DNA from: Macrocystis pyrifera
Taxonomy: Eukaryota; Sar; Phaeophyceae; Laminariales; Laminariaceae
Assembly: GCA_031763025.1 (NCBI GenBank)
Contig: JASSKH010000020.1
Location: 10,352,528-10,416,527, forward strand
Reading direction: 5' to 3'
Length of the DNA: 64,000 nucleotides
The notes below the pieces were generated by a model that was given only the letters and a program-made list of their open reading frames with translations, was not told the DNA's origin and did no database searches. Position numbers and translations under genes: made by a program. Numbering within the stretch: position 1 is the stretch's first letter; each line of letters opens with the position of its first letter. Of the stretch, positions 31,293 through 50,124 are shown piece by piece.

Positions 31293-33144
31293 GGGGTGAA
31301 AGACCGATCGATTACCCAGCCCAGGGTAATCGTTGTAGCATTGTGTTGTAGGTGAGTAATTTAGAGAAGACAATCGGGTGCGATGCGTACACCCATCCAC
31401 CACAACAGCAGCACTTTCTCACAACATTATGTCATGTTGGACAGTCAACAACAATGAGTTAGTGAATGCTTGGTTTTTCCTGTCTGTATACTTTTTCTGG
31501 TCTCATCACTCGTGGTTTTTCACCGCACAAAACCGACACCATATGCAAAAACAATAGACAATATCTACGACACTTCTGATAGCCAAGGCTCCTCGGTTGA
31601 GGTGCTACAGCGCGTACATACATACAATCAATCGTGACAACCAACGTGACGTGGGTAGATGGGGTGGTGAGATAAACTCGTACGAAGGGCCGAGTGAAGC
31701 GACTTCGAGCAAGGGCTGAAATATACGAGCACGAAGATACATATATATAACATCAGGAACGACGAGCTCGGGGTCCAATAAATACAACTCGAAGCGCAAA
31801 AGGGAGGAGGAGGACGGGGGTGAAGGAAAATCTACAACAGCAGCAGTCGGTAGGCGGTCGGTGGTAAACCAACCTGTGATGCGGTGAGCCAGCCCAGTTT
31901 GGGCCCCACGAAAAGATCGTGGACACTGTTGTATTCGGACGGCGTACACCAAGTAGATATCCTTTTCCATGTGTCTGTTCGTCTTCGAGTCTTTTCTTCG
32001 GTCTTCCTAAACGAAAACGCACGGGCAAACGAAGTAAAGCAGCAGCCGGTTGGAAGCCGGGGGCAAACATATTTGTGCTACGGTCTGCCTGCCTAACGGT
32101 CAGCCCAAGTTGGGACCTGCTGACTGTAGAGCAACCGCGTAGATGTTCGGAAAAAACGCGTCGTGTACGGGATAGTATAGGTCGACATACCCTTTTTATT
32201 ATTTTCTTATCGGGGTATCATTCTTCTCGTCCTCATGCACCTGAGCCTTCCTCTGCCAATATCGTCGGGTGGCTTTTCCATCCTCCATCGCAACGAGCAT
32301 TTCGAGAGGTGCTCTATGTTCGTGTGGAAGAAGCTTCAAGCGGGGTGAAGATAATACTGGGGAAGCATAACAACACGAAAACGATGCATCGGAAGACATC
32401 GTATATTTATTGAGGTACCAGGACTATTTTCTAGCCCTTTGGTGGGGCTGGATGAGCCTTCTTCTTCTTCTTCCTCTCCTATATATATATACTGGTATAT
32501 TTTTTTAATTCATCTTGCGACGGTTTCTTCTATTAATACGAGTATCGTCGATCATCCACCAGGAAGGTTTACGCTGGTCGTACGCATAGACTGCTGTACT
32601 TCGAGTGGGGTCAGGAATTGCAGCGGAGCTTGACGAGAGTGTGGCGGAGGAGGTACGGGGTTACAAGAACGCCGATATAAATAAAAATAAAAATAATTCA
32701 AATATACCTGGTACCGGGTACAAAATAAAATAAAACAGGAGCAGACGGACCAAGCACGATCGGCAGTGTTTGTTGCAAGGCCGAAATAAAAACGCAGTGC
32801 AATTATCTTCCTACGGGCTAGGCACGGGTTTTGAGGTTCGGGAGAGAAGGGAGGAGAGGCGAAACAGGGTTGGGAATGAGCTGGGGGAAAATGAACGTGG
32901 GGAAGGAAGGTTGACAGAGGCTATCCTCTTGCTGGGAGTAGGGGAGAGTCCAGCAGCAGCAATCTACATACCTGCATCACTGGGAGAGGAAACTCGGTGC
33001 GTCGAACCTGAAAGGCAAGATGGGGTTAAAAACCAAGAACCCTAGGAGAAGGACACGATGCAATAGGAGAAAGAGGAAGAAGCTGCAATCGTCACCGTCA
33101 CGGAATAAATTAAGTGCGCATCACGCTCACCAAAGGGGGGTTGG
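31293..33144. other. no gene recognised; one SINE-leader fragment
   Basis: 31290-31345 holds a fragment with ATAGGGGTGAAAGACCGATC and TACCCAGCCCAGGGTAATCG, matching the leader of the SINE-like copies at 12.8-13.1 kb. 32459-32500 is a CTT and AT simple repeat. The 5' untranslated region of the non-LTR element below probably occupies the last few hundred bases, but its start cannot be fixed. Confidence 0.45.
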
Positions 33145-33167
33145 TTGGTTAAGGGTTGCGAAAGTGT

Positions 33168-33195
33168 GGGCACCCTCGCGTCCGTGAGGGTGCCC
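33168..33195 (+). promoter_or_regulatory. perfect hairpin just before the first ATG
   Basis: GGGCACCCTC and GAGGGTGCCC form a 10-bp stem around an 8-base loop. The first ATG of the open frame lies at 33199, three bases after the stem. In RNA this could slow scanning ribosomes or be a structural or protein-binding site. The position is observed; the role is inferred. Confidence 0.6.
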
Positions 33196-33198
33196 GTC

Positions 33199-34032
33199 AT
33201 GTCGGAAGGCAGCGATCTCCCCGTAGAAACCGCGGCACAAACCGCAAGCACAACAATAGGCCAATCTTTTTGCCCACTGCCAGCCGGGCGAGGGCGGAGC
33301 AGGACTCTTCCGGCATGGATGCAGCCAAGGATTCGTGACGCAACCCCCGTGCCAGGAGGGTTACAGCAACAAGCAGCAACCGGGGCGAGGCCGGGAACCG
33401 TTTGTTTTGGGCAGCGGGAGCCAGGCGTATCGACTATTAATAGTACAGTACCTGGGACAGCGGCACAACCCGCAAGTGCAACAACAGCTTTATCTTTGTA
33501 TCCACTGCCAGTCGGACGAGGGCGGAGCAGGACTCTTCCGGCATGGATGAAGCCAAGGATCCTTGACACAACCCCCGTACCGGGAGGGTTGCAGCAACAA
33601 GAATCAACCGGGGCGGGGCAGGAAACCGAGTGTATCGGACAGCGGGAGACAGGCGGATCGACGAGTGCAGTGTCTGCGATGACTGCACAACCCGCAGGTG
33701 CAACAACAGCCCTATCGTTTTGCCCACTACCAGCCGGACGAGGGCGGGGCAAGACTCTCCCGGCATGGATGCAGCCAAGGATCCTTGTCGCGACCCCAGT
33801 GCCGAGAAGGGCGGGGCCGGAAACCGACTGTTTTGGGCAGCGAGAGACAGGCGTATCGACTAGTGCAGTACCTGCGATGGCCCCACTGTCGGTAGGGGGC
33901 GAACAAGCGAGCGAGGTGCAGCAAGAGGGGGGTCAGGCACTTGCAGTAGACAGGAGGTGTCTAGTAGATGTTACGCCACCGGTAGGGCGTGCGAGGCGTG
34001 CGAGCCCCCAGACGGGAGGTCCAGCCCGATAG
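33199..34032 (+). CDS. N-terminal repeat protein of the non-LTR element
   Basis: The frame is open from 33145; the first ATG is at 33199. Three units of about 75 residues begin at 33286, 33514 and 33736, each with a GRGRSRTLPAWMQPRI-like motif, then ATPVPGGLQQQ, then a CFGQRE.GVST block. GRGR-LPAWM motifs also occur in PQBP1-like splicing proteins; homology is not claimed. The product is low in hydrophobic residues and probably disordered. The stop at 34030-34032 falls where the overlapping frame (33957-34928) takes up the same GGLQQQ pattern, so a frame change around 34005-34030 is likely. Confidence 0.55.
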   Translation: MSEGSDLPVETAAQTASTTIGQSFCPLPAGRGRSRTLPAWMQPRIRDATPVPGGLQQQAATGARPGTVCFGQREPGVSTINSTVPGTAAQPASATTALSLYPLPVGRGRSRTLPAWMKPRILDTTPVPGGLQQQESTGAGQETECIGQRETGGSTSAVSAMTAQPAGATTALSFCPLPAGRGRGKTLPAWMQPRILVATPVPRRAGPETDCFGQRETGVSTSAVPAMAPLSVGGEQASEVQQEGGQALAVDRRCLVDVTPPVGRARRASPQTGGPAR

Positions 34033-34928
34033 GGGGGCTGCAACAGCAGGGATTGAATGGGGAGCAGCAAGGTGAGGGTCTGCCGTCGACGACAGCCACA
34101 ATGCGCTTAGCAGTGACCCCGCCGCAGGAGGAACGCGGACGAAGCATTAATACCCCGGTAAGGACGAGTGCGGGGAGGAGACCAGCCCCTACATTGGGAG
34201 GCCTCCAACAGCAGGCGTCGCAAAGGCCAGTGCCGAGGAGGGGTAGGACCGAACCACTTTTGCAATCTGTCTTCCAGGTCCAGCGGGATAGGGCATCATC
34301 AGGCGATCGGCCTTCACCGCGCCCACAGGCGCCTTCGACGCACAGATCGCCATCGCCTTCGGGAAGAAGAATCATCACCACTCTGCCCCCACCTCAGGCG
34401 GGACTCTTAGGACGCCGGCAACGATCTACCTCCCCTCTGTCAGGGAGGACGGCACGCACGCGTCAACGACCTCCGGTTACCTTTGCCGATGATACTCAAT
34501 ACCGAACGGCGTTGGCGCATCGAGAGGGGGCGCAAGACGCCCGAGCTAACCGTTCACGGTCGATCCCGACGATAGGGAGAAACGTCAACCCTTTACCCCA
34601 CATCATCGGGATCCGGCGAGTTAAGACAGCATCAGGGGATCGTCCCTCGCCCCGACCAAGTTCACTGGCCAAGGCACCGTCCCCCGTCTCCTTCTGGGGG
34701 GAGCATCACAACCTCTCCACCCTCGATCCGGCCGGGGATCCTGGGGCACCGGCGACGAGCTACCTCCCTTCCAACAGAGGAGTCGATGCGCCTGCACCAG
34801 CGATTTCGGTTTACGTCTACCGAGAATACCCGGAGCCAGCAGGCGTTGGTGCCTCGCAGAGCACCAACCGTCCAGGCCCATCGCCCGCAGCCATCAGTGA
34901 CTCTCTCGGAACTAATAGCCAGTGCTAG
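33957..34928 (+). CDS. Pro/Arg/Ser-rich segment of the non-LTR element
   Basis: Continues the GGLQQQ pattern of the preceding frame (at about 34035 and 34198). It also contains two related stretches, ASSGDRPSPRPQAPSTHRSP and ASGDRPSPRPSSLAKAPSP, so it is internally duplicated. No folded domain is recognised. It is unlikely to have its own start. Confidence 0.45.
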   Translation: MSSRCYATGRACEACEPPDGRSSPIGGLQQQGLNGEQQGEGLPSTTATMRLAVTPPQEERGRSINTPVRTSAGRRPAPTLGGLQQQASQRPVPRRGRTEPLLQSVFQVQRDRASSGDRPSPRPQAPSTHRSPSPSGRRIITTLPPPQAGLLGRRQRSTSPLSGRTARTRQRPPVTFADDTQYRTALAHREGAQDARANRSRSIPTIGRNVNPLPHIIGIRRVKTASGDRPSPRPSSLAKAPSPVSFWGEHHNLSTLDPAGDPGAPATSYLPSNRGVDAPAPAISVYVYREYPEPAGVGASQSTNRPGPSPAAISDSLGTNSQC

Positions 34929-36477
34929 AGCGTGGAGTACTAGAACAGATAGGAGGGAGGGTGGTTCTCGGTTGATAGCAGGCTCTCAGGCCGCAAACAG
35001 CCTCTGTGGACACCTCGGGTCGCCGAACACTGCTCCATGCGCAGGGAGGGGAACCACACGACGACAGAGCCCTTCGCCAATGGATGAGGAAAGAAGATGC
35101 GCCCCTATCTCGCCACACGGTACACTTCCCGCTGGTGGCGGCGCTCAAAGTCGGATAAGGCCTCCTAGCCCACTACCGCCGAGTGCGACACCGGGTTTCC
35201 GGGACTTGAACACGAGGTTGCAAGACGCTTGCCTTGCAGCGAGGAGCTTTGTTCGGAGGGGGCCCACATCTACGAGGGGTCACAACAGAGCCGGCGGAGC
35301 TCCAAGTCGTATAAGATCCACTAGCCCACTACCACCGGGTGCGTTACCGGGCTCCCGTGATTTGAACACGAGGTCCCAAGACGCTCGTCTTACAGCGGGG
35401 AGCTTTGTTCGGAGGGGGTCCACAACTACGAGGGGTCACATTAGGGGAGGTGGCGCTCAAAGCTGGATAAGGTCCTCTAACCCACTACCGCCGGGGGCGA
35501 AACCAGGCACCCGGGATTTGAACCCGAGGTCTCACGACGCTCGTATTGCAGCGGGGAGTTCTGTTCGGAGAGGGCCCTCAACTACGAGGGGTCACAATAG
35601 GGGAAGAGCAGCCCTCAACGTCGTTGCAACTCCTACGAAGGTAGGGCTTCTTCCCCCGATGACGCTGGGGGCGACACCGGGCTCTCAGAACCCAAGAGTG
35701 GTCTGCCTTCTCCCCCGTTCGAGAGTAAGGAGTGGTCAGCAACGCCAAAGGCCCAGCGACCCAATGGATGTTGAACACGTTCCGGAGGAGGCACCCCAGG
35801 GGGGAAATGAGAGCATTACGGCGAGAGCTAGTTTGGGAGTGAGAGTAGGTGGGCCAACGTCGACGGGGAACAGGAGGGCAAACGGTGGACTCGGGAGCTT
35901 CGCCCAGCCGGGGAGTTTGAGGGGATCCACGTCGGAGAGGCACCAACAGGGGTACTTGTCGCCCCGGGTCAGCAATGGTGCCCACAACAGGATAAGACCT
36001 TCTGTGCAGATGGCACCGGATGCGGCATCGGGCTATCTGGAATCGAGCCCTGAGTCGCAGGATGCACGTCGTGGAGCGAGAAGCCTAGCCCGGAGGGGAC
36101 TTTGGAGGAGGGACACGCCCGCAAGGAGTCAGCAGGGGTACCGTGCACTTCCCGTCGCGGATGTCGTTCGAAGTGGGGTGAGGTCTTCTCCCTCATTACC
36201 GCCGGGTGCCGAACCGGATTCCCGGGACCTAGACCCGATGTCTCAAGACGTTCGTGTTGCTGCTGGGAGCCTTGTCCGGAGGGGAGGCTTGGGCGGACTC
36301 ACACCTCTGAGGAGCCAGCTGGGGTGCGGGGCAGCTCTCATCGATGGCGGAGCTCGCACTAGGGTAGGGGTTCCTTCTCCGCTACCAATGGGGGCGGCAC
36401 AGGGCTCTCAAGACCCAAGAGCGGTCGCCCCCACCCCCCGTTCAGGAGGAGACGCCGCACGAGGACGATGCGCCTAG
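34786..36477 (+). CDS. tandem-repeat segment (about 51-residue units) of the non-LTR element
   Basis: Units of about 152 bp start near 35145, 35298 and 35453, with more degenerate ones later (for example 35980, 36165, 36350). Each unit reads RIR..SPLPPGA.PG.RDLN, then RSQDARL.AGSFVRRG, then TTRGH. The region is basic and Pro/Arg-rich, with no folded domain. It overlaps the previous frame, so a frame change lies around 34790-34925. Confidence 0.5.
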   Translation: MRLHQRFRFTSTENTRSQQALVPRRAPTVQAHRPQPSVTLSELIASARAWSTRTDRREGGSRLIAGSQAANSLCGHLGSPNTAPCAGRGTTRRQSPSPMDEERRCAPISPHGTLPAGGGAQSRIRPPSPLPPSATPGFRDLNTRLQDACLAARSFVRRGPTSTRGHNRAGGAPSRIRSTSPLPPGALPGSRDLNTRSQDARLTAGSFVRRGSTTTRGHIRGGGAQSWIRSSNPLPPGAKPGTRDLNPRSHDARIAAGSSVRRGPSTTRGHNRGRAALNVVATPTKVGLLPPMTLGATPGSQNPRVVCLLPRSRVRSGQQRQRPSDPMDVEHVPEEAPQGGNESITARASLGVRVGGPTSTGNRRANGGLGSFAQPGSLRGSTSERHQQGYLSPRVSNGAHNRIRPSVQMAPDAASGYLESSPESQDARRGARSLARRGLWRRDTPARSQQGYRALPVADVVRSGVRSSPSLPPGAEPDSRDLDPMSQDVRVAAGSLVRRGGLGGLTPLRSQLGCGAALIDGGARTRVGVPSPLPMGAAQGSQDPRAVAPTPRSGGDAARGRCA

Positions 36478-36499
36478 CACGGAGAGAGATAGGGTAGAA

Positions 36500-36871
36500 G
36501 TGAGAGGGGGCCTCCATCGCACCAATAGATGTACCACGTTCGGAAGAGGTCCCAACGGGGCGGTGGCGCAACTCGGACCGTCCACAAGGGCGGTAATATC
36601 AATAGACGAACGGCGGCGGGCAACGAGCAGGGTACCTATAGAGGACCTTATATCCACCAGGACAAGGGCACGTACCCGGATAGCCGCTAGGGCCGTCGCA
36701 AGATCATCGGAGCAGGAAGAAAGACGCCAACCTCCCACCGAGCCGCTCCACGGATCCTCCCGTCCGCAGCCAACAACGACGCAGTCTTCGTCATCGATAA
36801 CACTTTTGGAGACGGCACCATCCTCGCCGGAACAATCTCCGGATACACCCCGTTCAGCACAGCGGGCGTGA
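36500..36871 (+). CDS. linker segment of the non-LTR element
   Basis: 123 open codons rich in Arg, Ser, Pro and Thr, with TRARTRIAARAVARSSEQEE. It has no recognised domain and is placed here because it fills the gap between neighbouring frames on the same strand. Confidence 0.3.
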   Translation: MRGGLHRTNRCTTFGRGPNGAVAQLGPSTRAVISIDERRRATSRVPIEDLISTRTRARTRIAARAVARSSEQEERRQPPTEPLHGSSRPQPTTTQSSSSITLLETAPSSPEQSPDTPRSAQRA

Positions 36872-36913
36872 GAAACTACGCAATCACCGACGGCAACGGG
36901 TGCGGGGACTCCC

Positions 36914-38221
36914 TTGACGAGCCCCCTTCCGCTTGGAGTACCCGCCATGGAATGTTCGCCACCGTCGCCACGACCCCCGCCACGGCGGCTACCGACAACT
37001 ACCCGTCCCTCGACAGGCGCACCACTTTTGACGCCGGACGTGATCCTTGCGCGCGAATCGTCAACACAGTCAGCGGCTAGAATGGCGCAGTTGGCGCCAC
37101 CAAGTTCATTACAACAGACGTGCGCATCGACACAGGATGGAGGAAGTTCGGAGCCCGCGCTGACGTCCGAACCACCGCCATCTCTACCACGGCCACCATT
37201 GCAGACGCCAGAAGAGAGAGGGCAGCCCCAGCAGGAGACCTCGGAAGACTGCTGCGTATGCTACGAGGCATTGGTGGCCCCGATGGTATATCTAGGGAAC
37301 CGCTCTCACCGGCTGCATCTACCGTGCTACGCCACACTTCGTGTTCGGGCAGGGGCCGACCTGCGCTGCCCGACGTGTCGGGCGACCGTAACAATTGGTG
37401 AAGCCGACGGGATGGCGTTCCGTCAGCACAGCGACGAGATCATAGCAGAGGCCCTAGCGATCGCGCGGCAGGAGATGCCGGCCGAGAGGGGAAGAGGGGC
37501 ATCCACAAGGATCACAGGGGGCGAGAGGGGCGAACGATTGTTATGTAGTATCTGCCATGGACTGGTTGAGGAGACTGAACGCGTACAGGTGTCCTGCTCG
37601 TGCGACGCGCATCGCCGCTGCGCTCTAGGCTTTTGCGAGAACGCAATCTCTCGAGCCAGATTCATCGGCGAAGCACGGTTAGTCACGTGCCCGAACCCCG
37701 CCCTACACGACGTTCAACAAGAGGTGGACCTACACCCCCTCTTGCAACATATTCGTACCATTGGCAGGTCGGCGGACACACAGGACGAACGCGATTAAGT
37801 GAACAGGGTCACCGTTGCCGAGAACCGCCTTCGGGGCAGGACCCACATTGTGCCCGAAAGGGTGGATCGGACACTGAATGCCACAGCGCGAGACGAGGAG
37901 AACCTCTCTTGGGACTGGCGTAGCACGATTCCACAACCGTATGCGCTATGTGGAGTCTGCGATAGGAATATGGAAGACGACGAGAGGTTCTCTTTCTCCG
38001 GTTGGCTCGTCCACAGGAGATGCGCCGTTGAAAGCGTAGAGGGGGCAGACAATAGGGGAGACGACCGGTTTGGGGTGGCCATTCGGGAAGGGACAGGACC
38101 GTCGCGGCGGAGAACGTTACTCCTCGCGGAAATTCTGCCGAGGATCCCTCTGAGGTACGACCGCGCTTCCGACCGGGGAGCCTATCAACAGGTCAGTTGG
38201 AAATCCTATGGCGATCGGTGA
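36914..38221 (+). CDS. RING-like zinc modules 1-3 of the non-LTR element
   Basis: Module 1 (37249-37395): CCVCYEALVAPMV, then H-rich SHRLHLPCYATL, then LRCPTCRATV, a good RING pattern (C-x2-C, H, H/C, C-x2-C). Module 2 (37540-37700): LLCSICHGLVEETE, then CSCDAHRRCALGFC. Module 3 (37942-38040): LCGVCDRNMEDDERF, then WLVHRRC. RING folds usually recruit ubiquitin-conjugating enzymes, but in an ORF1 protein they may simply bind nucleic acid. A TAA at 37796-37798 interrupts the frame, which continues open on the other side to 38221. Confidence 0.6.
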
Positions 38222-38229
38222 ATTCGGGT

Positions 38230-38643
38230 ATGAAAGAGGCCACAAGCCGGGACGAAAGCCGCCAACAAGCGCAAGGAGGGAGGTCAGATGACGTCGAAAC
38301 ATCGTGCACCTATTGCGGCCAGGTTCTAGATGACTCTGCTGGAGAGTCGGGGGGCAGCCACGTGCGAATACCTATCCCGTGCGTCCACGGAGGGTTTTTG
38401 CATGCACCCTGCATGCTGGACCGGGCAGATCACATCGCGAGAGGACATGCCGACCCGAGGTCCTGCGTAGTGTGCCAGTCTGCGTGGCCGGAGGGGGGCA
38501 GGCCTCCCCACCCGGCGGAACTTACCAGAGGGCTGCCCATGTCCGAGCAGGGGGGGAGGTGGGCGGCGGTGAGTAGTGCCCTGCAGTTCGCCGCCCTCCT
38601 CGAGCGGGGGGTAACCTCGGCGCGGAGTCAGACAGTTACGTGA
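38230..38643 (+). CDS. RING-like module 4 (first copy of the duplicated unit)
   Basis: An ATG at 38230 follows the previous stop by 8 bases. Coding reads CTYCGQVLDD, then IPIPCVHGGFLHAPCMLDRA, then CVVCQSAWP, a RING-H2-like set at 38304-38493, followed by HPAELTRGLP. The stop at 38641 overlaps the next frame. In the second copy of the unit this junction is read through (SYV.TTG), so a one-base change around 38608-38640 probably separates the two frames. Confidence 0.55.
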   Translation: MKEATSRDESRQQAQGGRSDDVETSCTYCGQVLDDSAGESGGSHVRIPIPCVHGGFLHAPCMLDRADHIARGHADPRSCVVCQSAWPEGGRPPHPAELTRGLPMSEQGGRWAAVSSALQFAALLERGVTSARSQTVT

Positions 38644-39347
38644 CGACTGGGGTTCACAACACGTTCGAGCACATGGTGAGTGCCGTGGGGAGGAGCCCAA
38701 CCTCTTGGTTTGTGCTGTGCTCCCTATTCTGCGATGCGCTGGATCTACCGCAACAAGCTTACCTCGATTTCCCCCGCACGAGGGAATGGGAAGAGGCGGC
38801 CACCCACTATCAGACGCTGTTCGCAGCGCACGGCATCCGACCCCAGGACATATTACTCCAACTCCCTAACCGGAGGCTCTACATTGGACCTCATGTCCAA
38901 GAGTATTTGGCGGGCCTTGACGCCGAATGGGAGGAACGATTGACGAGGTGGACCCTCGGTGTCCAAAGGTCGCTGGAGGCAGGTGACGCACTGCCTCCTT
39001 TCCCGACGGCGGTGGCGGCCCCACCGGAGCGAGTGGACTTAGCGCAGGGAGACAACCGGTTAGCAAGGCGGCAGCCTGAAGAGAGAGGTGCCGCTCTAGG
39101 TTCAACAGAGAGTCGTGAGACCACAAGGGACACCGCGCTAGCAGGCCTATGTATCTATTGTGGTGAGGACATACAAAAACTCAGACAGGAGTCCAGAGGT
39201 CGACCATCTGTGGGACAACCATCACTTGTGACCATGACAACAGACAGTTGGTACACGCCGGCTGCATGCTGGATCGTGCGGAACGCCTCGCATGTGGACA
39301 CACAGACCCGCAGCCATGCGTCGAGTGTGGCTCTGAATGGCCGATAA
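38640..39347 (+). CDS. helical domain, first copy, and start of RING-like module 5
   Basis: Open frame with TFEHMVSAVGRSPTSWFVLC, AYLDFPRTREWEEAATHYQ, LPNRRLYIGPHVQEYLAGLD and EERLTRWTLGV, then EAGDALPPFPTAV. It looks alpha-helical and folded and is repeated at 39510-39855. At about 39150 CIYCGEDIQKL opens module 5, whose remainder is in another frame. Confidence 0.55.
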   Translation: MTTGVHNTFEHMVSAVGRSPTSWFVLCSLFCDALDLPQQAYLDFPRTREWEEAATHYQTLFAAHGIRPQDILLQLPNRRLYIGPHVQEYLAGLDAEWEERLTRWTLGVQRSLEAGDALPPFPTAVAAPPERVDLAQGDNRLARRQPEERGAALGSTESRETTRDTALAGLCIYCGEDIQKLRQESRGRPSVGQPSLVTMTTDSWYTPAACWIVRNASHVDTQTRSHASSVALNGR

Positions 39348-41050
39348 GAACCCGACCTCCCCATCCGGCAGAGTTAACTGAGGATCTTCCCAGACCCCGG
39401 CCGGGGGGAAGGTGGCCGGCAGTAGGAGGTACCCTGCAGTTCGCCGAACTTCTTGAGGAGGAGGGCACCCATCTGGTACCGGCCAGTTATGTGACGACTG
39501 GTCATCACCCCACGTTCGAGCACATGGTGAGGACCCATGGAAGGAGCCCAACCTCTTCGTTCCTGCTGTGCTCCCTGTTCAGCGATGCCCTGGGCATGCC
39601 TCGAGCGGCGTACCTCGATTTCCCTCGCACGAGGGAATGGAAAGCGGCCACCGCCGACTACCGTGAGCGTTTTGCCGCGCACGCCATCCGACCACGGGAT
39701 ATCATGCTCCGACTCTCAAACCGGAGGATCTACATCTCACCACACGTCCAGCAGTTTCTGGCAGGCCTCCACGCCGAATGGGAGGAACGCCTGACTAGGT
39801 GGACCCTCGGGGTACGAAGTGCATTGGAGGCAGGTGACGTGGTGCCTCCTTTTCCGACGACAGTGGCAGACACGCAAGGACGGACGGGCCAGGCGCTGGA
39901 GAGCGAGCCATTAACAGGGGGGCATAACGATCAGGGTGGCAATGCTGGAAATGCCATAGAAAATCGTCAGGCCGCGGGAAACAGCGACGCTACGTCAGCG
40001 GGACAAGTGGGAACCCCCTGGACAACATCCAGCCTAGCCCTGACCAGGTGCACTCTCGGGGTACTAAACGTGCGGGAAGCAGGTGATGCGCTACCTCCTC
40101 TTCCGACGGCAGAGTGGACCCCCGGGGCCCCAAACGCGTTGGGGGTAGGGGACGATTTTAATCCTTTTCCGACGGCGGCGGTGTCCCCAACGGAGGAAAC
40201 GGTCCCGACGGCGGAAAGCGGTCCGCAAACTAGGGGGCAGGTGGAGCAGGGAGGCGCCGCTAGGAGTGCCATAGAAAGCCGCCACACCGAGGGGGGTAGG
40301 GATGCCGCGCTAGCGGGACAAGTGGAGATCCCTCAGGCAAGGCCCAGTACCGCCTCTGCAACATTTGCGGAGGCAACGTCTCCTAGATCAGCTGGAAGCG
40401 CATCGCCCTCGCTCGAGGGCGGCCAAGGTGGAATGGGGGCAAACTTTGGAGGTTCCAGTCCAAGTGCTGCGCGGCCTCTGCCTCCGGCGGCAGAAACGAC
40501 ACCGCTGGGAGGAGAAGCTCTGGCGTCGGAGGGCGACTCGCGGACAAGGGGTCAGGTAGATCAGGGAAATGCTGCTGTAGTAGGCATGGAAAACCTTCAA
40601 ACATCCAGAGACAGGGATGTCACGCCATCGGGACGCTTGAGGGTGCCCATGACACCATCCAGCGCCACCCCAGCAACACCTGGAGATACTTCCTCTGAAC
40701 CTGGTAGCGTAGCCAGCGAGGGGGTTGGCACAAGAGGCGGACGGGGCCGACCGCGGGGGTTTGGGAGGGGGTCACGAGCGAGAAGCACAGGGAGAGGGGC
40801 CGTCACGAACCGGGAAAGAATCCCTCGACCCGGCGGCAGTAAGCCGCCCTCGGCCCCTGAACCGAGAGGAGGCAGCGAGTCGCCCTCGACTCCTGGATCG
40901 AGAGGGGGCAGCGAGCTTCGTTCGGATCCTGGATCGAGAGGGGGCGGTGGTGAAGAGAGAGAACTCCCCAGGGAAGGAGAAGGTAGCGAGGGGGGAGGAT
41001 CAGCATCGGGGAGCGTAGGGCGACTCCGTGCATTCATTGGCGTCAGTTAA
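39248..41050 (+). CDS. RING-like module 5, second helical domain, and Gly/Pro-rich linker
   Basis: Opens with LVHAGCMLDRAERLACGHTD and CVECGSEWP (end of module 5), then the second helical unit (TFEHMVRTHGRSPTSSFLLC, AYLDFPRTREWKAATADYR, EERLTRWTLGV). After 39900 come low-complexity blocks: diverged repeats of LTR.TLGV..EAGD.LPPLPT at about 40045-40185, and three 14-residue units of the PGSRGGSE type at about 40830-40950. The stop at 41048 is 9 bases before the ATG of the next frame. The same sequence, inverted, is at 62665-64000. Confidence 0.6.
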   Translation: MVHAGCMLDRAERLACGHTDPQPCVECGSEWPIRTRPPHPAELTEDLPRPRPGGRWPAVGGTLQFAELLEEEGTHLVPASYVTTGHHPTFEHMVRTHGRSPTSSFLLCSLFSDALGMPRAAYLDFPRTREWKAATADYRERFAAHAIRPRDIMLRLSNRRIYISPHVQQFLAGLHAEWEERLTRWTLGVRSALEAGDVVPPFPTTVADTQGRTGQALESEPLTGGHNDQGGNAGNAIENRQAAGNSDATSAGQVGTPWTTSSLALTRCTLGVLNVREAGDALPPLPTAEWTPGAPNALGVGDDFNPFPTAAVSPTEETVPTAESGPQTRGQVEQGGAARSAIESRHTEGGRDAALAGQVEIPQARPSTASATFAEATSPRSAGSASPSLEGGQGGMGANFGGSSPSAARPLPPAAETTPLGGEALASEGDSRTRGQVDQGNAAVVGMENLQTSRDRDVTPSGRLRVPMTPSSATPATPGDTSSEPGSVASEGVGTRGGRGRPRGFGRGSRARSTGRGAVTNRERIPRPGGSKPPSAPEPRGGSESPSTPGSRGGSELRSDPGSRGGGGEERELPREGEGSEGGGSASGSVGRLRAFIGVS

Positions 41051-41059
41051 GACGGCGTG

Positions 41060-42220
41060 ATGCGCGGGGGATGCCGATCGGCAATCGCTCGGGGGCACCG
41101 AGTGGTAGGGCTGCCGTGTGGAAACCAGCACGTTATGCACGCGCGGTGTGTGGTGGAAGCTATCCGAAGGAGTGGGTCACACGCACAACTCATTTGCGCT
41201 ACACGAGGGTGCATGGCCCGCCATGGGAGACGGGAATCACTGGAGGCAGCAGTTCAGGCTGATCCTGGACTCCGTGTTACGGTCGCAGGACTTGAAGGAA
41301 GGCAGGACAACAACTACGATGAACAGAGGGAAGAGCTTTGCTACCCGTGGGACCAGGATTCGTTAGGCATAGCAGGGCCACTAGATGATGTTTCTCTTGA
41401 ACAGCTCCAACAACGTTTCGTCACCGTGGTTAAGGTACAGCCGGGGCTAGCTACTGTCCACGCCAAGCTTCTCACCCACGTGCTTGGTCTCCTGAACCAC
41501 GCCCTCGGAGCGCATTGGCCAAACAGACACTCAGAGACGCCGAGGTCGCTCCTGAGGGCCATTAAGATGTGGTACATCGTGCCAGCACTGCTACACTCGC
41601 AGGACAGCCGCGTGGAGCGACGCGAGAGATTCGCGTCCGTCGAACGAGGTGACATCACGCTTATTCTCCCGTGGTTGATGGAGTACACCAGCCGAGCATC
41701 GACACGGCTCAGCGGCCCAACCTACGAAGCCACAGACGCGGCTAAGTACGAGAGAGCGTCGTCAGCCTGTCGCCACTCGGGCGGGGTGTCAGTAGCAGCA
41801 CGCTGTCTTCTCGCGGAAGCCCGAGCGCCCGGCAACGAGGTGACGTGGGAGCGGGTGAAAGCCAAATTCCCGGGGGAAGATCGTGCCTCCATCTCCAAGT
41901 CGGCAGCGGCCGCGGTGGCAGCAAGCTCCACGGAACCGAAGGAAGGAAGTGTTCCCAACTGGCGTCCAGAGCAAGAGTTGGATTCGCAGGTGGCCCTCGA
42001 CGTCATCAACTCACACAATGCGTTATCAGGCTCGGGGAGTGACGGCCTACGCTTCTCACACCTGCAGTCGGCTTCGGTCGCGAGAAGTTTGGAGCTAGCA
42101 GCGAGGCCTTTTGGAGGCGGATCTTCGACGACCCCGTTGCATTCCCGCCGGAATTCTGGCAGCTCTTCTTGCAGTCCAACCTCACTACCTTGGGGGAAAA
42201 ATGTCGCCCCGAATGTGTAG
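41060..42220 (+). CDS. RING-like module 6 and start of the reverse-transcriptase protein
   Basis: The ATG at 41060 follows the previous stop by 9 bases. Residues about 18-55 read VGLPCGNQHVMHARCVVEAI and LICATRGCM, a degenerate RING/RING-H2 pattern. A roughly 230-residue helical region follows, then the first RT block, SGSGSDGLRFSHLQS, at about 42030-42075. The frame then leaves the RT: the sequence FWRRIFDDPVAFPPEFW at about 42110-42165 is in the frame that continues at 42169. A frame change therefore lies near 42078, and the 42220 stop is not the natural end. Confidence 0.65.
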   Translation: MRGGCRSAIARGHRVVGLPCGNQHVMHARCVVEAIRRSGSHAQLICATRGCMARHGRRESLEAAVQADPGLRVTVAGLEGRQDNNYDEQREELCYPWDQDSLGIAGPLDDVSLEQLQQRFVTVVKVQPGLATVHAKLLTHVLGLLNHALGAHWPNRHSETPRSLLRAIKMWYIVPALLHSQDSRVERRERFASVERGDITLILPWLMEYTSRASTRLSGPTYEATDAAKYERASSACRHSGGVSVAARCLLAEARAPGNEVTWERVKAKFPGEDRASISKSAAAAVAASSTEPKEGSVPNWRPEQELDSQVALDVINSHNALSGSGSDGLRFSHLQSASVARSLELAARPFGGGSSTTPLHSRRNSGSSSCSPTSLPWGKNVAPNV

Positions 42221-43935
42221 GTATGACATGGAGACGTCTTCTAGCAGCCGGGACTATTAGGCAGTGGCGGCCACGGCTGGAAGAGATTAATCGTGAGGCA
42301 AGACAGTTTGGGGTAGGGATTCGAGGGGGGGTGGAGCAGGTAGCTCTACGCGCCCGGGTACACCATGAATCAAGAAACTGGCTCATCCTAACCGACTGTT
42401 CCAACGCCTTCAATACTGTAAAGCGGACGGCAGTACTTGCCGAGGCGGCCACTTGCGTGCCCGCGCTTACGCCGTTCATTGCTAACTGCTACGGCGAGAG
42501 GCCCGCCCCTACGTTCTTCCAGATGGACTCGGGGGAGCGGCGTAAAATTGACTGCTCCAGTGGAGTGCAGCAAGGGGATGCTATGGGCCCGGCGCTGTTC
42601 TGCATGCCACTGCTGCCAATACTCAAACGGGTCCGTGAGGAGTTTGGACCCCGGGGTGTTGAAGCCTTTGCCTACCTCGATGACATTAGCATCGGTATAT
42701 CAGAGATTACACCGGACACACTGAGAGTAGTGCCCTTTCTCCAGCACGAGCTGTGCGAAATAGGCGTTGCAATTAACCCCAGCCAGACGGTTGCTTTGCC
42801 TCCAAAAGGGCATGTGCCTACGTCGGAAGATATAGCACTTCTGGGGAGAATAGGTGTCCGCATTGCGGAAGGGGCTGGGGTAAAGGTGGTTGGCGTGCTC
42901 ATAGGCACTGATGCATTCGCGGTGAACAGCGCCGTCGAGATAGTCCGAGATGGGGGAGCAGAGCAACTCGCGCGCATCCTGCCGCGTATGCTGGACAAAC
43001 AGTCGGCGAACCTCATCGCTACCAGTTCAATGGTGAAGCGGACCTCCTACATTGAGCGGGTAATGGACCCGGAGCTGTCACTACCCGCGTGTCAGCGGGC
43101 AGACAATAGAGCAATATGGATGCTCGAGCGCCCTCTCGAGCTTCCAGGGATAGCGGACGAATCGCCGTTGTTTGCGGACGGATGCCCGGCGAATCGGTTG
43201 ACGCTTCAGCCCCACCAGAAAGCGCAGGCGAGCCTCTCCACAGGGGCCGGGGGGCTTGGACACTCATCGGCTGAATCAAGGAGAACGTCAGCGTCCATCG
43301 GGAGCTTAGTGGCGACGGTGCCCGAGGTCCTTGCTGACCTCTCCGGCCCATTGGGGGGAAAAGTCCGAAGGGAGTTGCCCAATTCGGACCTCGTTCGCCG
43401 CATATGGAGTAGCGTCAGGGACCTCCGTGACATCCATGGGGTATCGGAGGAGGCAATGGCGAACGTGGTCCCGGAAAGTTGGCGGAATAGAGCGTTTCGC
43501 GCGCACGAGGGAGGAGTCTCAGAGCTGTCTGACATGGAGGCATTGCCAGCACATGAAGCCCAAACGACCAGCTCCCACAAAGCGCAGCACAAGCTGGGGC
43601 AGCAGGTAAACCGGGTATGGTACCAACGGTACGTTGCGTCTCTGGACCAGCTTCCCGAGGCAGCAGGCCCGTCGAGTCGGAACGACGTGTTCGGGGGAAT
43701 CGAAACCAGAGATCTTGCCAAGGCTCGGCAACGGAGCCTATCGGGACCAGGCGCTGTCGCCTGTTTGAGGGCAAGGCCTGTGGACACGGCACGAATCATA
43801 CCGGCTTCGGAGTTCGTGTCTATGGGACGGCGCTTTCTGGGAATGGAGGAGCCCATAGCGACGAGGTGCCCCTGCTGCGAAGCGACGTCACCACGCGTCA
43901 CGCGCGCACATGCCACCGAGCAGGCGCGCAGGTAA
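42169..43935 (+). CDS. reverse transcriptase of the non-LTR element
   Basis: 588 open codons without a proper start because they continue the previous frame. RT motif A is LTDCSNAFNTVKR (42390-42428), motif B GVQQGDAMGPALF, motif C FAYLDDISIG (42667-42696; YLDD holds the catalytic Asp pair), then GVAINPSQTVALPPKG (motif D/E region). The thumb and linker follow, with LIATSSMVKRTSYIERVM. The end enters CPCCEATSPRVTRAHA, the first half of a CCHC knuckle. An identical frame is at 59780-61546 on the minus strand. Confidence 0.85.
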   Translation: MQSNLTTLGEKCRPECVGMTWRRLLAAGTIRQWRPRLEEINREARQFGVGIRGGVEQVALRARVHHESRNWLILTDCSNAFNTVKRTAVLAEAATCVPALTPFIANCYGERPAPTFFQMDSGERRKIDCSSGVQQGDAMGPALFCMPLLPILKRVREEFGPRGVEAFAYLDDISIGISEITPDTLRVVPFLQHELCEIGVAINPSQTVALPPKGHVPTSEDIALLGRIGVRIAEGAGVKVVGVLIGTDAFAVNSAVEIVRDGGAEQLARILPRMLDKQSANLIATSSMVKRTSYIERVMDPELSLPACQRADNRAIWMLERPLELPGIADESPLFADGCPANRLTLQPHQKAQASLSTGAGGLGHSSAESRRTSASIGSLVATVPEVLADLSGPLGGKVRRELPNSDLVRRIWSSVRDLRDIHGVSEEAMANVVPESWRNRAFRAHEGGVSELSDMEALPAHEAQTTSSHKAQHKLGQQVNRVWYQRYVASLDQLPEAAGPSSRNDVFGGIETRDLAKARQRSLSGPGAVACLRARPVDTARIIPASEFVSMGRRFLGMEEPIATRCPCCEATSPRVTRAHATEQARR

Positions 43936-44162
43936 AACAGCATCAGCCGCTAGTCCACGCGCTGTCCCGCACCTTCAAGCGGTTGTCCATCCGCCATCAA
44001 ACGGAAAGCGGAGCGCCCTTCAACGCCGACAGAAACCTCCGCATGGATATAGTGATCGAGAGGGGAGGCCTCCGAGACGCTACGTCGTCAGAGTACCGTA
44101 ACAAGGCGATACTCCTCGACATCACGCACGCAGACCCCCAAGCGAGAGTCCACATGCGCTGA
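43890..44162 (+). CDS. restriction-like endonuclease of the non-LTR element
   Basis: In the frame that runs 43617-44162, the meaningful part begins about 43890 with HARTCHRAG, the second half of the knuckle. It continues FNADRNLRMDIVIERGG and KAILLDITHADPQA. The R..D..V and LLDIT pair is the PD-(D/E)XK-type core found after the RT in R2/CRE/NeSL-type LINEs. The enzyme would nick target DNA for target-primed reverse transcription. A frame change at about 43895-43908 separates it from the RT, and another near 44150 from the tail. Confidence 0.7.
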   Translation, partial: TTRHARTCHRAGAQVKQHQPLVHALSRTFKRLSIRHQTESGAPFNADRNLRMDIVIERGGLRDATSSEYRNKAILLDITHADPQARVHMR

Positions 44163-44550
44163 TCGAGACGGATCAGCCGCCTCCACTTCCGAGGCGCGAA
44201 AGCGCAACCACTACGCTCGTGCAGGACAAGTGTCCTTCGACGAGCGCAGCCATAAACTTGTCACCCTCGCGGTGGAAAGCTTTGGACGCCTCGAGAAGGA
44301 AGGCAGCGATTTCATTGACCAGCTGGCAACGAGCATCATCGGAGGAACGGACGGGGGATCTCTAGCAAGAAAAGGGGTTTGTAAGGAGTATCTTTTCCAG
44401 ATCATATCGGGGACCACCCAGGTCGCGATCTCGCGCCGGGTGCACCGACATAATCCTGCCCTGCGAGACCGCCAGGCCGCCAGGGGGAGAAGAGAGGAGG
44501 AGGGAGGACTACTTCGAATGGCGTGGGGATGGATTGTAGATGCGGAGTAG
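44150..44550 (+). CDS. C-terminal tail of the non-LTR element protein
   Basis: Reads ADRDGSAAS, HYARAGQVSFDERSHKL, TLAVESFGRLEKEG, then FIDQLATSIIGG and TTQVAISRRVHRH. It is well formed, with helical spacing, and follows directly after the endonuclease core, so it is probably the end of that domain. The stop is at 44548. In the mirror copy a one-base difference in a G run gives a different last 15 residues. Confidence 0.6.
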
Positions 44551-46510
44551 GACGCAGGGCGTATAGATACATAGTCGGTGAAAATATATCGGTAAAAGGT
44601 AGTACGTATTCAATTGAGTATACGCAAGGAAGGAAAAAAGGTTGGATAAAATTGAGGGTGTTCGACGAATTATGTTAGTTTTTTCATCATAAATGAATAA
44701 CGCCCTGCACATTGTCAGAAGGCAAACAATAATAATAAATATATATATATATATACAATACGTTAAAACTAAGCAAAATTCTAAAACCGCACATACCACG
44801 TTAGTTCGGGGAACAAAGAAGCTTTTGTACTATTTCATGAATTCGGTAGTCTATTCTGCATTGTATTGAACGAAAAATCGACAAAAATACAACTACAAAA
44901 GCTTTGGTAAACAATTGCAATCGACTCAAACTCACCTCTTGCATGGTCCAGGCCAAACCATTTTCCAAAAGGGGTACCTGTTTTATCTTTGTCATTTTTT
45001 AGAATTAACACGTGAAACAAGGTGCCCCAGACCCGCGCGGTCGAGAGGAATCAAAACCCGCTGTAAAAAAAATAACCATGAACAACGGCCATATGTGGAT
45101 ATTTCTAGAAAAATAATAACCCGAATTCACCCCGATTTTACCCCGAAATGTGTATTTTTGTCCCAATGGGAATAGAAATTAGAGACGACGCCCAACGTAA
45201 ACATGCTTTATTTGTCGAGAAGACACACGTATGTATACAACAGGTCCAACTGTAAGACACCGATAATACGCATACAGCAGCCGGCGTCCCCGGTGGCTTG
45301 GTAGGTGGTCCGCGTGCCTGTCAAGATCAATTTCGTGGGTTCAATGAGTCTCACCGAGTGCATGCTCATAGGGACTTTTCCTTGCATAAAAAATTGATAA
45401 GCGGAAAGCGCGAAAGCGTGAGTTGGCTATATTCGATGAAAATCGACGAGCAGTGGGAATGCAGAACCCTATGCGCGACAAAAAATAAAGGCACGTACCG
45501 GGGGGGGAGAAGGGACGACACCTGTGACCACGGCTTGTCCAGAAGATCGTCGAGGGTAAAACCTCCTACGAGTGGGCTGGAAAGTAAAAGTGATGGAAAA
45601 AAAAATATATATATATACATATGTGTGTGTTTTCTTCACATTAAACAGTTCTTTCTACTCGTCGACATCGAGCACAAACAGTGTACGTGCGATGCAATGC
45701 CATGTCATCATATCATACTGGATACGACAGGCACGACATTCTTATTAATCACAGAAACGACAGAGAACAAAGGAAAATAAAGAAGACAAAGACAAATCGA
45801 AACAGAAAATAAAAGAGCCCACGAAGGGATGGATTTGGCAGCGCTAGATAAGAAATAGCTGGAAAAAACACATAAAAAGGAGAGAAAACACCACTACTTG
45901 TAAACAGACTACGACTAAGGACCATATAAAAAGAACAGGCTAGCCAAAGCCCAAAGCACCCTCCATACACATAAGTAGGATTTCTTCTTTTTTCGACCTA
46001 CATAATCGTTTAAAAAAATAAAAATGCTGGGTCCAGGTCCAAGAAGAGTTTTTCAGCACCCGTTGTGTCCGTTTTTCGCTAAAACGTCTGCACGTGGAGC
46101 CGGGCAAAGGAGAGCTTTTCACCTACATACCACTTTAAAATGAATAAAAATATAATCTGTATCGAGAGGAATGTGGCCCTGAACGAGATACGTTAGAAAC
46201 CGTTGTAAAAAACAAAGACAACAACTGCTGTTGTGTTCCTTGTCGGAGAACGAGTTATTCTGACGCGACGACCAAATTTGCTTTGCTCATGAATGAAGCT
46301 GGAACTGTTATTAATCAGTGCTGGACCTTATCCACATAAATCCCACAGCAGTAGCATATATGACACCCATGCCGCTGCCGCTACAGCAACAGCAACTGTC
46401 GCACCTCCACTTACCCCCTTCAGTTCTTCTCGAACATGCCAAGGATATAATTGTACCGCTTCACAAGCCCCAGATTTCCTCATTTGTTTTATATCCAATG
46501 TTTTATGTTA
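44551..46510. other. 3' flank of the non-LTR element; no gene recognised
   Basis: AT-rich. 44735-44757 is a TA repeat. Near 45600 there is an AT microsatellite. No ORF has a recognisable domain. The 3' untranslated region of the element should end somewhere here, but I cannot place it. Confidence 0.45.
45287..45360 (+). mobile_element. tRNA-like sequence (SINE or tRNA relic)
   Basis: CGGTGGCTTGGTAGGTGG fits an A box, GTGGGTTCAATGAGTCTCAC a weak B box, and CGGTG near the 5' end pairs with CACCG at the 3' end. An anticodon-loop-like CCTGTCAAG lies between, but its stem does not pair well. Mirror copy at 58361-58434. Confidence 0.4.
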
Positions 46511-46614
46511 TTATTACGGGGGTCCATAGGACCTATGGTACACACAAAACCCTCTATATTTCCCAATTTTTACTAACAATATTTGGTCCTGTTAACTATG
46601 GCCCCCCTTAATAA
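46511..46614. mobile_element. MITE of the TA-flanked family
   Basis: TTATTACGGGGGTCCATAGG to GTTAACTATGGCCCCCCTTA, with the internal ATTTTTACTAACAATATTTG block. Mirror copy at 57106-57209. Confidence 0.85.
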
Positions 46615-46970
46615 CAAATACATGAAGTATTATTATTCGAGTTCGTACCAGGCAGTTATGAAAGCATATTGTACACGGTATATACAATAATCGCAAAATA
46701 TGTGTCATGTGTCATCAAACAAACGTTGCAAGAGCATCCAAGTCACAATGTCGTCATATTGGTGGAGGTTAAAGATTGAACGGAGTACGAGTATACATCT
46801 GGGGTTTGTGCAGAGGTACAGAATATTTGGCATGCTTGGACAGAGGGGATGGGCAAGAGGTTCATAGAGTCAATGACGTGTGCGGTTGGTTCAACCAGGA
46901 AAACACGCGGGTGAAAGGGTTGACACGGCAGTGAGGAAAGAGACCATCTCGGTCTACGTACAATAATATA

Positions 46971-47080
46971 GTATTACGGAGGGCCATAGTATATAGGACT
47001 TACGGTACACAAAAAACCTACATATTTACCTTTTTGTACCAACAATAATTTATCCTATTTACTATGATCCCCCGTAATAG
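46971..47080. mobile_element. MITE of the TA-flanked family
   Basis: GTATTACGGAGGGCCATAGT to CCCCGTAATAG, 110 bp, TA on both sides. Mirror copy at 56640-56749. Confidence 0.88.
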
Positions 47081-48492
47081 TAGTAGTAGTACTCGGGGAG
47101 GGGTAACAGCAGGAGGGGTAGAAGGAACACCGTACAAGTGTATGGGGGCAGGGGGGGGAAACAGGAGGAGTAGAAGGGAAACCGCGATAGAAGAGAGTAG
47201 CGGAGAGACCGCAGATAGGGTAGCAAGGTACCAGGCCGACTAATAGGTTCGACTTTTCTTTGCTACTCGTACCGCCAACTGCTGCGGCCGTTCGGTATGC
47301 ATTTTGATTTTTTTTTTCCCTTCTTATCCTTATGAAAGAAGTACTACATAGTGGGTGGGTGACGAGCGTATTTTGGCCCACTCACTATTGCTCTTTTTAC
47401 TTAGTTAAGTGTTCACCGGGATGCATAGTCCCCTTTTTCCTTCTCGTATATTTCCCCTTGCACGTCCCTTTTGGCTCATGCTCGGGGTAAGTATGTATGT
47501 GTCTGAGCTTTGGCTTCCCATTATATTTATTTATTTGGGATTCTTCTCCTTTTCTTTTTCTTTTTCCTGTTCTTTTTCGGTTTGGTTTCTTCGTTGCTTC
47601 TCTTTCTTTAAGGTGTATTTTGGTTGCTGGCGTATGTATGTATGTTGTGTCGGCCGCACCCAGTGCGAAGGCATGGTATTGTGTAGGCTATTAATGCATT
47701 ACGGTGTGTTATCTCTGTGTCGTAGTCTGTGACCACAGAGCTCGTATCTTTCTAGGGTGAAGAACCAGCACGGACACTGGGCTTGCTGGATGTCGACGAG
47801 TAGAAGAACGGTTTAATGTGAAGAACACACACACACACACACACACACTCGTGGGGTGTACGAGAAGGGGTGGTTTGATATCCTTTAGAAGGTGGGCGAA
47901 TTGAAAGCAGAACCCGCCTGCCCTCCCTTGGGGATAAGGTGTGGTAGGTCTAAAGTACAGGTTGGCAGTCTCTCTCGGGTGCGTGTAATATATGCTACTA
48001 CTGCTGTAACAAGCAGTAGTAGGTGAAGAGTGGATATTATATATATGGTCCAGCACTTCTTAATATAAATTCCAGATTCATTCATGAGCAAAAAAATTTT
48101 TTTTTTCCCCCTTAATTTCCATGTTTTTTTCGAGCAATTCTCTAAGCTTCTAGATTTTTCATTCTTTTTCGGGTAATTCTTATCGGAGAGTTTTTTTCGA
48201 TGATTTCCGTGTTTTTTTAATGATCGGAGAGCTTTTCCCCACAGCTCAACACAAAATGTATATAATGCAGCATAATGCTTTTCGGAAGAACTTGTATACG
48301 TACTCACGAACCCAACCGTCGTCGCCACACGAAAACCAAAAATTACTTGTCCTTCCTGCCGAGCGCCGCCTCCTGTGAGATTCCGCTTGGTCATGACAAT
48401 CCGTGCGAACCGTCTAAAAACACGAAGCACATCGACAGTAGTAAATATATATGTATATATATACAAGGCTTTCCTTCGGAGTGGGTATTCCG
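47081..48492. other. no gene recognised; (AC)n microsatellite
   Basis: 47825-47848 is an AC repeat. Several ORFs around 47.4-48.3 kb are AT-rich or low complexity and contain no domain I recognise. Confidence 0.45.
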
Positions 48493-48713
48493 TCGTTTCT
48501 TGTACAAATACATTTAGTTTGGTTGGCTTTGGGCTATGACGCCAATTGCAGTTTTGGTTGGCTGTGGGCTTTGACGCCAATTGCAGTCATATTGCAATTG
48601 GGGTAATAGCCCAAAGCCAACCAAACTAGATGTTATGACGCCAATTGCGCTTATATTGCAATTGGGGCAATACCCAAAGCCAACCAAAGTAAAAGTATTT
48701 GTGTAAGAAACGG
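48493..48713. mobile_element. roughly 220-bp element with long inverted ends and internal repeats
   Basis: Left end CGTTTCTTGTACAAATACAT then GTTTGGTTGGCTTTGGGCTA; the right end is the inverse (TAGCCCAAAGCCAACC-like, then GTATTTGTGTAAGAAACG). Inside, blocks of GACGCCAATTGCA and TGCAATTGGGGTAATA alternate in both orientations. It is a MITE-like foldback. Mirror copy at 55010-55230. Confidence 0.75.
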
Positions 48714-49157
48714 TGAAGGATGTAATAATCGCGAAAAATATTTGTGAATGTAATGAGAAACATAAGATCGGGTGACGCAAGACTAAGAATGGCATTCGTC
48801 TAATAATAAGGATAACATCTTTCATCAGTGCGGGGAGAGAGTGGAGTAGTGCATGGCATGTGGATGATATACAACATACAGGCTGTTGTTTCAAGGAAGG
48901 TTCGGGACAGAGGGGAAAGCAGCAGTGCCGGCAACGACAACGGTTATGGAAATGTTGTATAGTTGCTGGGCGGCCGCGATTTCGGTTTAGCCAGCATAGG
49001 AGTTTGGATGAGACATGATATGTAAATAGTCTTCCAGGCTGCTGTAGTAACGAGGCGGGAGGCCCAGAATGTGGATCTGTCCGCTGTTGAACCCGTTGGG
49101 TATGTGTAGGGAGAAATAATCGTGATTTTGGGAAATGTGGGAACAATTTGTTGCCTC
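48714..49157. other. no feature recognised
   Basis: No repeat or domain. If the zinc-finger frame at 49158-49311 belongs to a gene on the minus strand, this would be its 3' side. Confidence 0.4.
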
Positions 49158-49311: not shown

Positions 49312-49358
49312 GCGCGCGGGGCGGGAGTGGCGTGCAGGGAATGGCGGGGGAGGGGGAA

Positions 49359-49380
49359 GGGGGGGGGGGGGGGGGGGGGG
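49359..49380. repeat. poly-G tract, 22 bases
   Basis: A run of 22 G on the plus strand, after two shorter G runs. The mirror tract (54277-54363) is 22 C, an A, then 64 C. Confidence 0.95.

Positions 49381-50091: not shown

Positions 50092-50124
<33 letters not shown>

Follow-up and report, generated by a model that had tools for sequence, protein, structure and literature searches.

A 64,000-nucleotide stretch of the Macrocystis pyrifera genome (assembly GCA_031763025.1, contig JASSKH010000020.1, positions 10,352,528 to 10,416,527 of the forward strand; hereafter the window) contains a decayed copy, no longer functional, of a mobile element of about 13.1 kb. Sequence comparison supports its assignment to the non-long-terminal-repeat (non-LTR) retrotransposons, or long interspersed nuclear elements (LINEs), of the restriction-like endonuclease (RLE) type, as a variant of this known class that carries an array of zinc modules as its own coding sequence. 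The original prediction, made from the DNA letters, had described a non-LTR retrotransposon with six RING-like modules, a reverse transcriptase (RT) with the motif YLDD and an endonuclease with the motif LLDIT. The modules and both motifs were found at the predicted places, all on the plus strand, and copies elsewhere in the genome (537 Mb in 223 contigs searched) confirmed that the array belongs to the element. Below, contigs are labeled Cnnn and loci Lnnn, the window being C201:10352528-10416527.

The zinc array in the coding frame of the element

Analysis of the longer copies revealed a single giant frame. The C209 copy, the 5' end of which is cut, is open for 3002 codons across the six modules, the RT, a CCHC knuckle and the endonuclease motif, and the C195 copy is open for 2476 codons across the array and the RT, so that one polyprotein takes the place of the two reading frames (ORF1 and ORF2) originally proposed. 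The N-terminal frames of C195 and C202 extend over 1119 and 1118 codons, respectively, up to the limit of the sequence examined, and both reach the same start region. Summing the partial frames of several copies, none of which was read open from end to end, gives an intact polyprotein of about 3870 residues; to our knowledge no other single LINE polyprotein is as large. The long copies that were read share a colinear domain order: a Pro/Arg-rich region, modules 1, 2 and 3, module 4 with domain A, module 5 with domain B, module 6, the RT, the CCHC knuckle and the endonuclease motif. In the window copy the first methionine of the frame lies at 33199, and the coding row changes frame repeatedly and contains in-frame stops at 37796 and 41048. 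Modules 1–3 (298 residues) do not differ between C209 and C195, which are 100% identical after rounding in modules 1–5 and 96% identical over residues 541–1800 as a whole, suggesting recent movement of the element. A 3891-codon frame at L019 was discarded, as it consists of a microsatellite (VCMY repeat) and Ns.

The genome was searched separately with the RT and with the array. The RT search gave at least 72 matches, from 70 of 1943 candidates scored, which fall by identity into groups of roughly 84–100% and 58–79% and are treated here as two putative subfamilies plus outliers. The array search scored 40 of 1420 candidates and gave at least 52 matches, which were clustered by hand into 37 loci, including the window copy and its flank-sharing duplicate. 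An RT follows the array at 36 of the 37 loci, and no free-standing array was found. At 23 loci an RT-search match lies downstream on the same strand; among the remaining 14, the RT was located in 11 expected windows and at C126 (L052) and C199 (L069), and one locus is internally deleted. The latter, L061 (C209:9275503; L068 is C209:9269000-9275502), lacks approximately residues 1580–2860, with the array joined to residues 2861–3002 and no RT. In the opposite direction, the sequence upstream of the RT was read in 11 copies; ten of them retain at least part of the array or a domain linked to it, and C197 begins inside the RT part. All six modules precede the RT in C209, C195, C202 and L046, while L047 and L048 retain modules 4–6, L019 modules 5 and 6, C222 and L045 module 6, and the copy at C221:8277604 a stretch of domain A. 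RT copies lacking the modules, which would have pointed to an unrelated gene, show a graded loss from the 5' end, as in LINE truncation. The C221 copy (C221:8277604-8279430), a more distant relative with 58% identity in the RT and an open frame of 870 amino acids, perhaps represents a third subfamily.

A relative was also found outside the alga: one scan of other genomes' contigs returned 45 stretches that matched the pattern, a single one of which proved to be related. L067 (JALZUP010000195.1), a contig of 7670 bp, is assigned to a metagenome-assembled genome of the bacterium Robiginitomaculum; it appears to be a eukaryote-type LINE, present through contamination of the bacterial assembly or wrong binning. 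Its open frame of 1927 codons runs to the stop from a point just within the contig edge, where module 1 ends; another stop directly precedes this frame at the edge, and the first part of module 1 is outside the view. Module 2, module 3, one 4/5-type unit, module 6, the RT, the knuckle and the endonuclease motif follow in this order, and a 169-bp stretch of the 3' untranslated region (UTR) is 78–79% identical to the element. Comparison of L067 with C209 by tblastn gave 41% identity over residues 585–1216 (array) and 67% over residues 1700–3002 (module 6 onward); by segment, identity is 50% in module 2, 45–49% in the segments from module 3 to module 5, 60% for module 6 and its surroundings and 71–72% in the RT and the endonuclease region. 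The array evolves at roughly double the rate of the RT but retains its ligands: 28 of 28 ligands are the same in L067 and C209, versus 74 of 156 other residues. No relatives were found in viral contigs (queried with the RT, the endonuclease stretch, the RT alignment and the array alignment), in phages (RT protein query) or in plasmids (L067 DNA query).

The RT itself is recognized by RVT_1 (E = 5.7e-14 in the window, 3.8e-16 in L067), and its matches in the PDB are three R2 chains (best E = 0.016 with a single sequence, 0.002 with a profile), so that among solved structures it appears to resemble R2 most. The putative endonuclease motif, R-x-D-I/V-V ... LLD, is present in the aligned element copies and L067. 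According to PMC5678591, as far as covered here, the RT and endonuclease of RLE LINEs are separated by a knuckle CX2-3CX7-8HX4C; that of C209 and L067, counted by hand as CX2CX8HX3C, keeps this order with the last gap one residue short.

Resemblance and conservation of the zinc modules

Eight ligands are present in modules 1, 2, 4, 5 and 6, and four in module 3, which falls short of the two zinc sites of a RING. Module 3 can be aligned with the N-terminal half of module 2 (C..C ... VHRRCA), like a halved copy. Modules 4 and 5 are a duplication, each followed by a conserved domain of about 120–150 residues (domains A and B) that matched no Pfam family in those parts that were searched. In module 6, the last ligand pair is spaced C-x4-C.

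Module 1 matches the RING-H2 pattern C-x2-C...C-x-H-x2-H-x2-C...C-x2-C, with the eight ligands intact in C209, C195 and C202. Its Pfam matches at E up to 1 comprise 13 families, 12 of RING type and one zinc ribbon, with zf-RING_2 best (E = 2.8e-5). A sequence search of the PDB gave 28 matches at E up to 1, the best being gp78/AMFR (1.4e-4); 26 of these are RING proteins by name or from general knowledge and two, ORC1B and AIRE, are not by name. The profile search also gave 28 matches, led by DTX1 (3.2e-4). A valine before the second cysteine (C2), a proline after C7 and an arginine after C8 mark RINGs that bind E2 ubiquitin-conjugating enzymes; the valine is present in C209, L046, L052 and L053, and the proline and arginine in C209, L052, L053 and L067. 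The RING identity of module 1 is well supported by sequence, although below the Pfam cut-off. For module 6 it is moderately supported: zf-RING_2 reached E = 0.0057, and 0.0019 in L067, both below the cut-off, RNF126 was the one PDB match by sequence (0.55), and the profile gave 19 weak matches, best Arkadia (0.037), of which 16 are RING chains, many from the same few proteins, the others being two cobalamin-binding proteins and Ask1. In the window frames themselves, zf-RING_2 scored E = 0.0013 for module 1 and 0.066 for module 6. Modules 2 and 4/5 are RING-like in ligand pattern only.

Several observations weigh against a RING array in an RLE LINE. Every Pfam match of module 1 lies below the curated cut-off (zf-RING_2, 24.7 versus 27.3 bits), and with a 1153-residue query zf-RING_2 was absent, zf-ANAPC11 (0.027) and a zinc ribbon alone appearing. 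The central helix of module 1 has no tryptophan, a residue found there in many RING-H2 E3 ubiquitin ligases. Module 2 had no significant RING match in Pfam or the PDB (two NSE1 chains, both with E above 4), nor had modules 4/5, for which the PDB returned fatty-acid-binding proteins at E above 1, which we regard as chance. The program hhalign linked no modules to one another (four of six pairs, probabilities of 0.9–14%, very thin alignments). A single AlphaFold2 model of unit 4 had a mean predicted local distance difference test (pLDDT) score of 40.8, with the module part at about 42–70 by blocks; its strand, strand, helix order is that of a treble clef but too weak to count, and the model speaks neither for nor against the predicted zinc sites. 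The R2 match spans the RT only, and the endonuclease region gave no Pfam match. Of the six RING-like modules originally proposed, then, five stand with eight ligands, module 1 with a RING match and module 6 with a weaker one, and module 3 is a half module; the profile searches envisaged at that time recovered RVT_1 and, below cut-off, zf-RING_2 on modules 1 and 6, with no significant match for modules 2 and 4/5 or the endonuclease region.

Comparison between copies showed the zinc ligands, as aligned, to be under selection. In second-subfamily copies, 184 of 190 ligand cells are identical to C209, versus 653 of 1068 other residues between ligands; by position, all 44 ligands are kept in the majority of copies, compared with 158 of the 243 remaining positions and 4 of 10 non-ligand Cys/His. 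These copies are related to one another, so P values from the ligand counts overstate independence, and in the L047 row the unit counted as module 4 may in fact be module 5, the first unit of this copy being truncated; the ligand count without this row is 176 of 182, with the other cells not recounted. All eight ligands of modules 1, 2, 4 and 5 are kept in C195 and C202. For module 6, 18 of 24 copies have all eight, one keeps the six visible and five lack one or two; ligand losses hit different ligands in different copies.

The ratios of nonsynonymous to synonymous substitution rates (dN/dS, NG86 method) are rough, since dS is near or above 1. Between C209 and L046 they are 0.092 for module 1, 0.065 for module 2, 0.193 for module 4 and 0.167 for module 5, and 0.126 for the region just before the RT (0.12–0.15 over three second-subfamily copies). 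Modules 4 and 5 gave 0.155–0.221 against L047 and L048, and dS is saturated for modules 3 and 6. From the RT to the end, the ratio is 0.107 against C222 and 0.093 against C197, and the linker with module 6 gave 0.247 against C222. Units 4 and 5 within C209 gave 0.28. Between young copies, with few changes, it is 0.43–0.67, as for decaying copies.

Possible roles of the array

In the mechanism that we favor, the polyprotein would bind its own RNA through the conserved 3' UTR, nick the genome and prime reverse transcription there; such target-primed reverse transcription, expected from the class, agrees with the A-rich tails at the 3' end, the flanks that differ between copies and the truncations at the 5' end. 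The N-terminal half would replace the job done elsewhere by the ORF1 protein or N-terminal zinc fingers. Module 1 would recruit a host E2 and tag either the polyprotein that carries it or a host factor in the vicinity of the particle, while modules 2–6 may be structural or nucleic-acid-binding treble-clef units, module 6 perhaps docking the array onto the RT. That module 1 is an E2-recruiting RING of a LINE polyprotein has, in our judgment, a chance slightly short of even, and E3 activity is plausible for it; the modules other than module 1 are probably structural. The fuller proposal, a working ubiquitin ligase in one polypeptide with the RT and endonuclease that brings host E2s to the integration complex and removes silencing factors or dismantles the particle after integration, is tentative and on present evidence rather unlikely.

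The array could instead be a nucleic-acid-binding device for RNA packaging or target recognition that replaces R2-like N-terminal fingers, with a likeness to RING in fold only and no part in ubiquitin conjugation. It lies N-terminal of the RT, in the position of the fingers of R2 and Utopia (PMC4640811, PMC13188248, in the parts covered). The missing RING matches of modules 2 and 4/5 and the Pro/Arg-rich N-terminal region also agree with this role. However, module 1 is RING-H2 by sequence and its nearest solved relatives are E3s, RINGs rarely bind nucleic acid, and the 3' flanks show no common target site by eye; we regard this explanation as doubtful. A role as an assembly scaffold is less probable still: the zinc modules would multimerize the polyprotein into a particle, Gag-like or TRIM/PML-like, without E3 activity, as the repeated modules, duplicated units and low-complexity linkers might suggest, but the repeat number varies, L067 having one 4/5-type unit versus two in C209. 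Finally, a separate host gene or chance neighbor of the LINE, which the broken frames of the window copy would by themselves be insufficient to exclude, is refuted, with hardly any probability left to it, by the continuous frames of C209 and L067, the position of all 37 array loci within the element and the absence of matches in 2000 protein shuffles to the one eight-ligand pattern that fits C209 modules 1, 4, 5 and 6 (composed after the modules were seen).

Read as a LINE polyprotein with a RING-H2 first module, the element has an RT closest to R2 among solved structures and shares with R2 and R2-like RLE LINEs a single reading frame and N-terminal zinc modules; it also has a CCHC knuckle, with the last gap one residue short, and a putative C-terminal endonuclease motif. 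R2 carries one to four small fingers (PMC13188248) and a Myb domain (PMC5678591), as described in the portions of these papers drawn on. Unlike R2, the element has about 2000 residues with a RING-like array upstream of the RT, no common target site seen and YLDD in place of the FADD of the R2 chains. Additional N-terminal domains are also found in the RLE LINEs NeSL and Utopia, which, in the available part of PMC4640811, have a Ulp1-like protease (NeSL and one Utopia), RNase H (oomycete Utopia) and one to three zinc fingers, with no RING array described. Neither Ulp1 nor RNase H gave a Pfam match at E up to 1 in the element. PHD and RING are both cross-brace zinc domains, and capture of such a domain by a LINE has a parallel in the CR1/L2 elements. 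These carry a PHD finger in ORF1 (PMC4120745, in part); unlike these APE-type (apurinic/apyrimidinic endonuclease) LINEs with one PHD finger, the element has an RLE-type motif, a RING-H2 first module and up to six modules. With the RING-H2 E3 ligases gp78/AMFR, DTX and Arkadia, module 1 shares ligands, spacing and sequence, but it is fused to an RT and an endonuclease motif. A survey of parts of the open-access literature, with Repbase entries outside its scope, found no report of a RING in a LINE, and an open-access search for Ectocarpus RLE elements gave no match. Captured host-like domains of LINEs, among them an esterase beside the PHD finger (PMC4120745) and the Ulp1-like protease and RNase H (PMC4640811, in the parts covered), are a main handle on the dealings of elements with their hosts; a conserved RING array in an RLE LINE polyprotein would, if true, add a ubiquitin-conjugating side to them. 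The size of the polyprotein also suggests more freedom of change in the N-terminal half of RLE LINEs than would be expected from a handful of small fingers, and the shortness of module 1 permits a direct test.

Boundaries, flanks and features of the window copy

The original extent, 33145 to 44550, covers the coding part of a longer element (Table 1). The 5' end was set near 31634 because homology to the independent C195 copy begins there at the same CAACCAACGTGACGTGGG, the sequence further upstream being unlike. Comparison of the 3' ends of 30 RT loci revealed mostly a conserved 3' UTR with TGTCAGAAGGCAA, followed by an A-rich or AAT/TA-rich tail and divergent flanks; L019 is masked, the match of L026 ends early, and the last motif is variable in L028 and L034. 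Three C201 copies (L009–L011) have flanks in common. Visual comparison of the 3' flanks at these 30 loci revealed no common target site, so that insertion at a single 28S rRNA site, as in the R2 clade, is not apparent. No convincing target-site duplication was seen in the two copies examined (C195 and C202), and no LTRs were present at the element ends in a repeat scan, a separate LTR search not having been made. The LINE hallmarks of a 3' tail, 5' truncation, dispersed copies and differing flanks are present.

Table 1. Features of the element copy in the window (window positions)
Feature	Position	Strand	Remarks
Whole element, decayed copy, ~13.1 kb	31634..44750	+	5' edge common with C195; 3' A/TA-rich tail, then differing flanks
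Putative 5' UTR, ~1.56 kb	31634..33198	+	common with C195, and with C202 from 32036
Single giant frame	33199..44550	+	interrupted here by frameshifts and two or more in-frame stops; open counterpart in C209; putative start codon
Pro/Arg-rich N-terminal region	33199..37220	+	tandem repeats of 228 and 156 bp
Module 1, RING-H2	37250..37381	+	third ligand Cys to Arg in this copy
Module 2, eight-ligand RING-like	37544..37708	+	C, C, C, C, H, C, C, H; last H assigned by hand
Module 3, CCHC half module	37949..38023	+	four ligands
Module 4, RING-like	38305..38475	+	eight ligands
Domain A	38633..38990	+	helical in low-confidence model
Module 5, paralogue of module 4	39150..39328	+	frameshift-split over two frames in this copy; end counted by hand
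Domain B, paralogue of domain A	39484..39845	+	
Module 6, RING-like	41063..41212	+	first ligand Cys to Arg in this copy
Reverse transcriptase (RVT_1)	42274..42798	+	YLDD at 42673-42684; R2 chains nearest among solved structures
CCHC knuckle between RT and endonuclease motif	43867..43920	+	frame broken here
Restriction-like endonuclease core motif	44040..44126	+	ends in LLDIT; motif only
3' UTR and tail	44551..44750	+	end near 44725-44750

The tandem repeats of the coding region, at 33233-33787 (228 bp) and 35137-35604 (156 bp), both have lengths that are multiples of three. The window also contains an inverted repeat (39716-51434 versus 52217-64000; 99.0–99.9% identity in two pieces, spacer of about 0.8 kb), the arms of which, about 11.7 kb long, take in the 3' part of the element and reach the window edge; it reflects either a palindromic duplication of young age or a fold-back in the assembly. 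A third copy sharing the 3' flank of the window element lies at C201:10505371. At L051 (C219:901194-910693), a copy truncated within module 5 adjoins a long tetranucleotide microsatellite, and a few other 3' flanks begin with AAT or ATCT repeats; a weak microsatellite preference of the element is possible.

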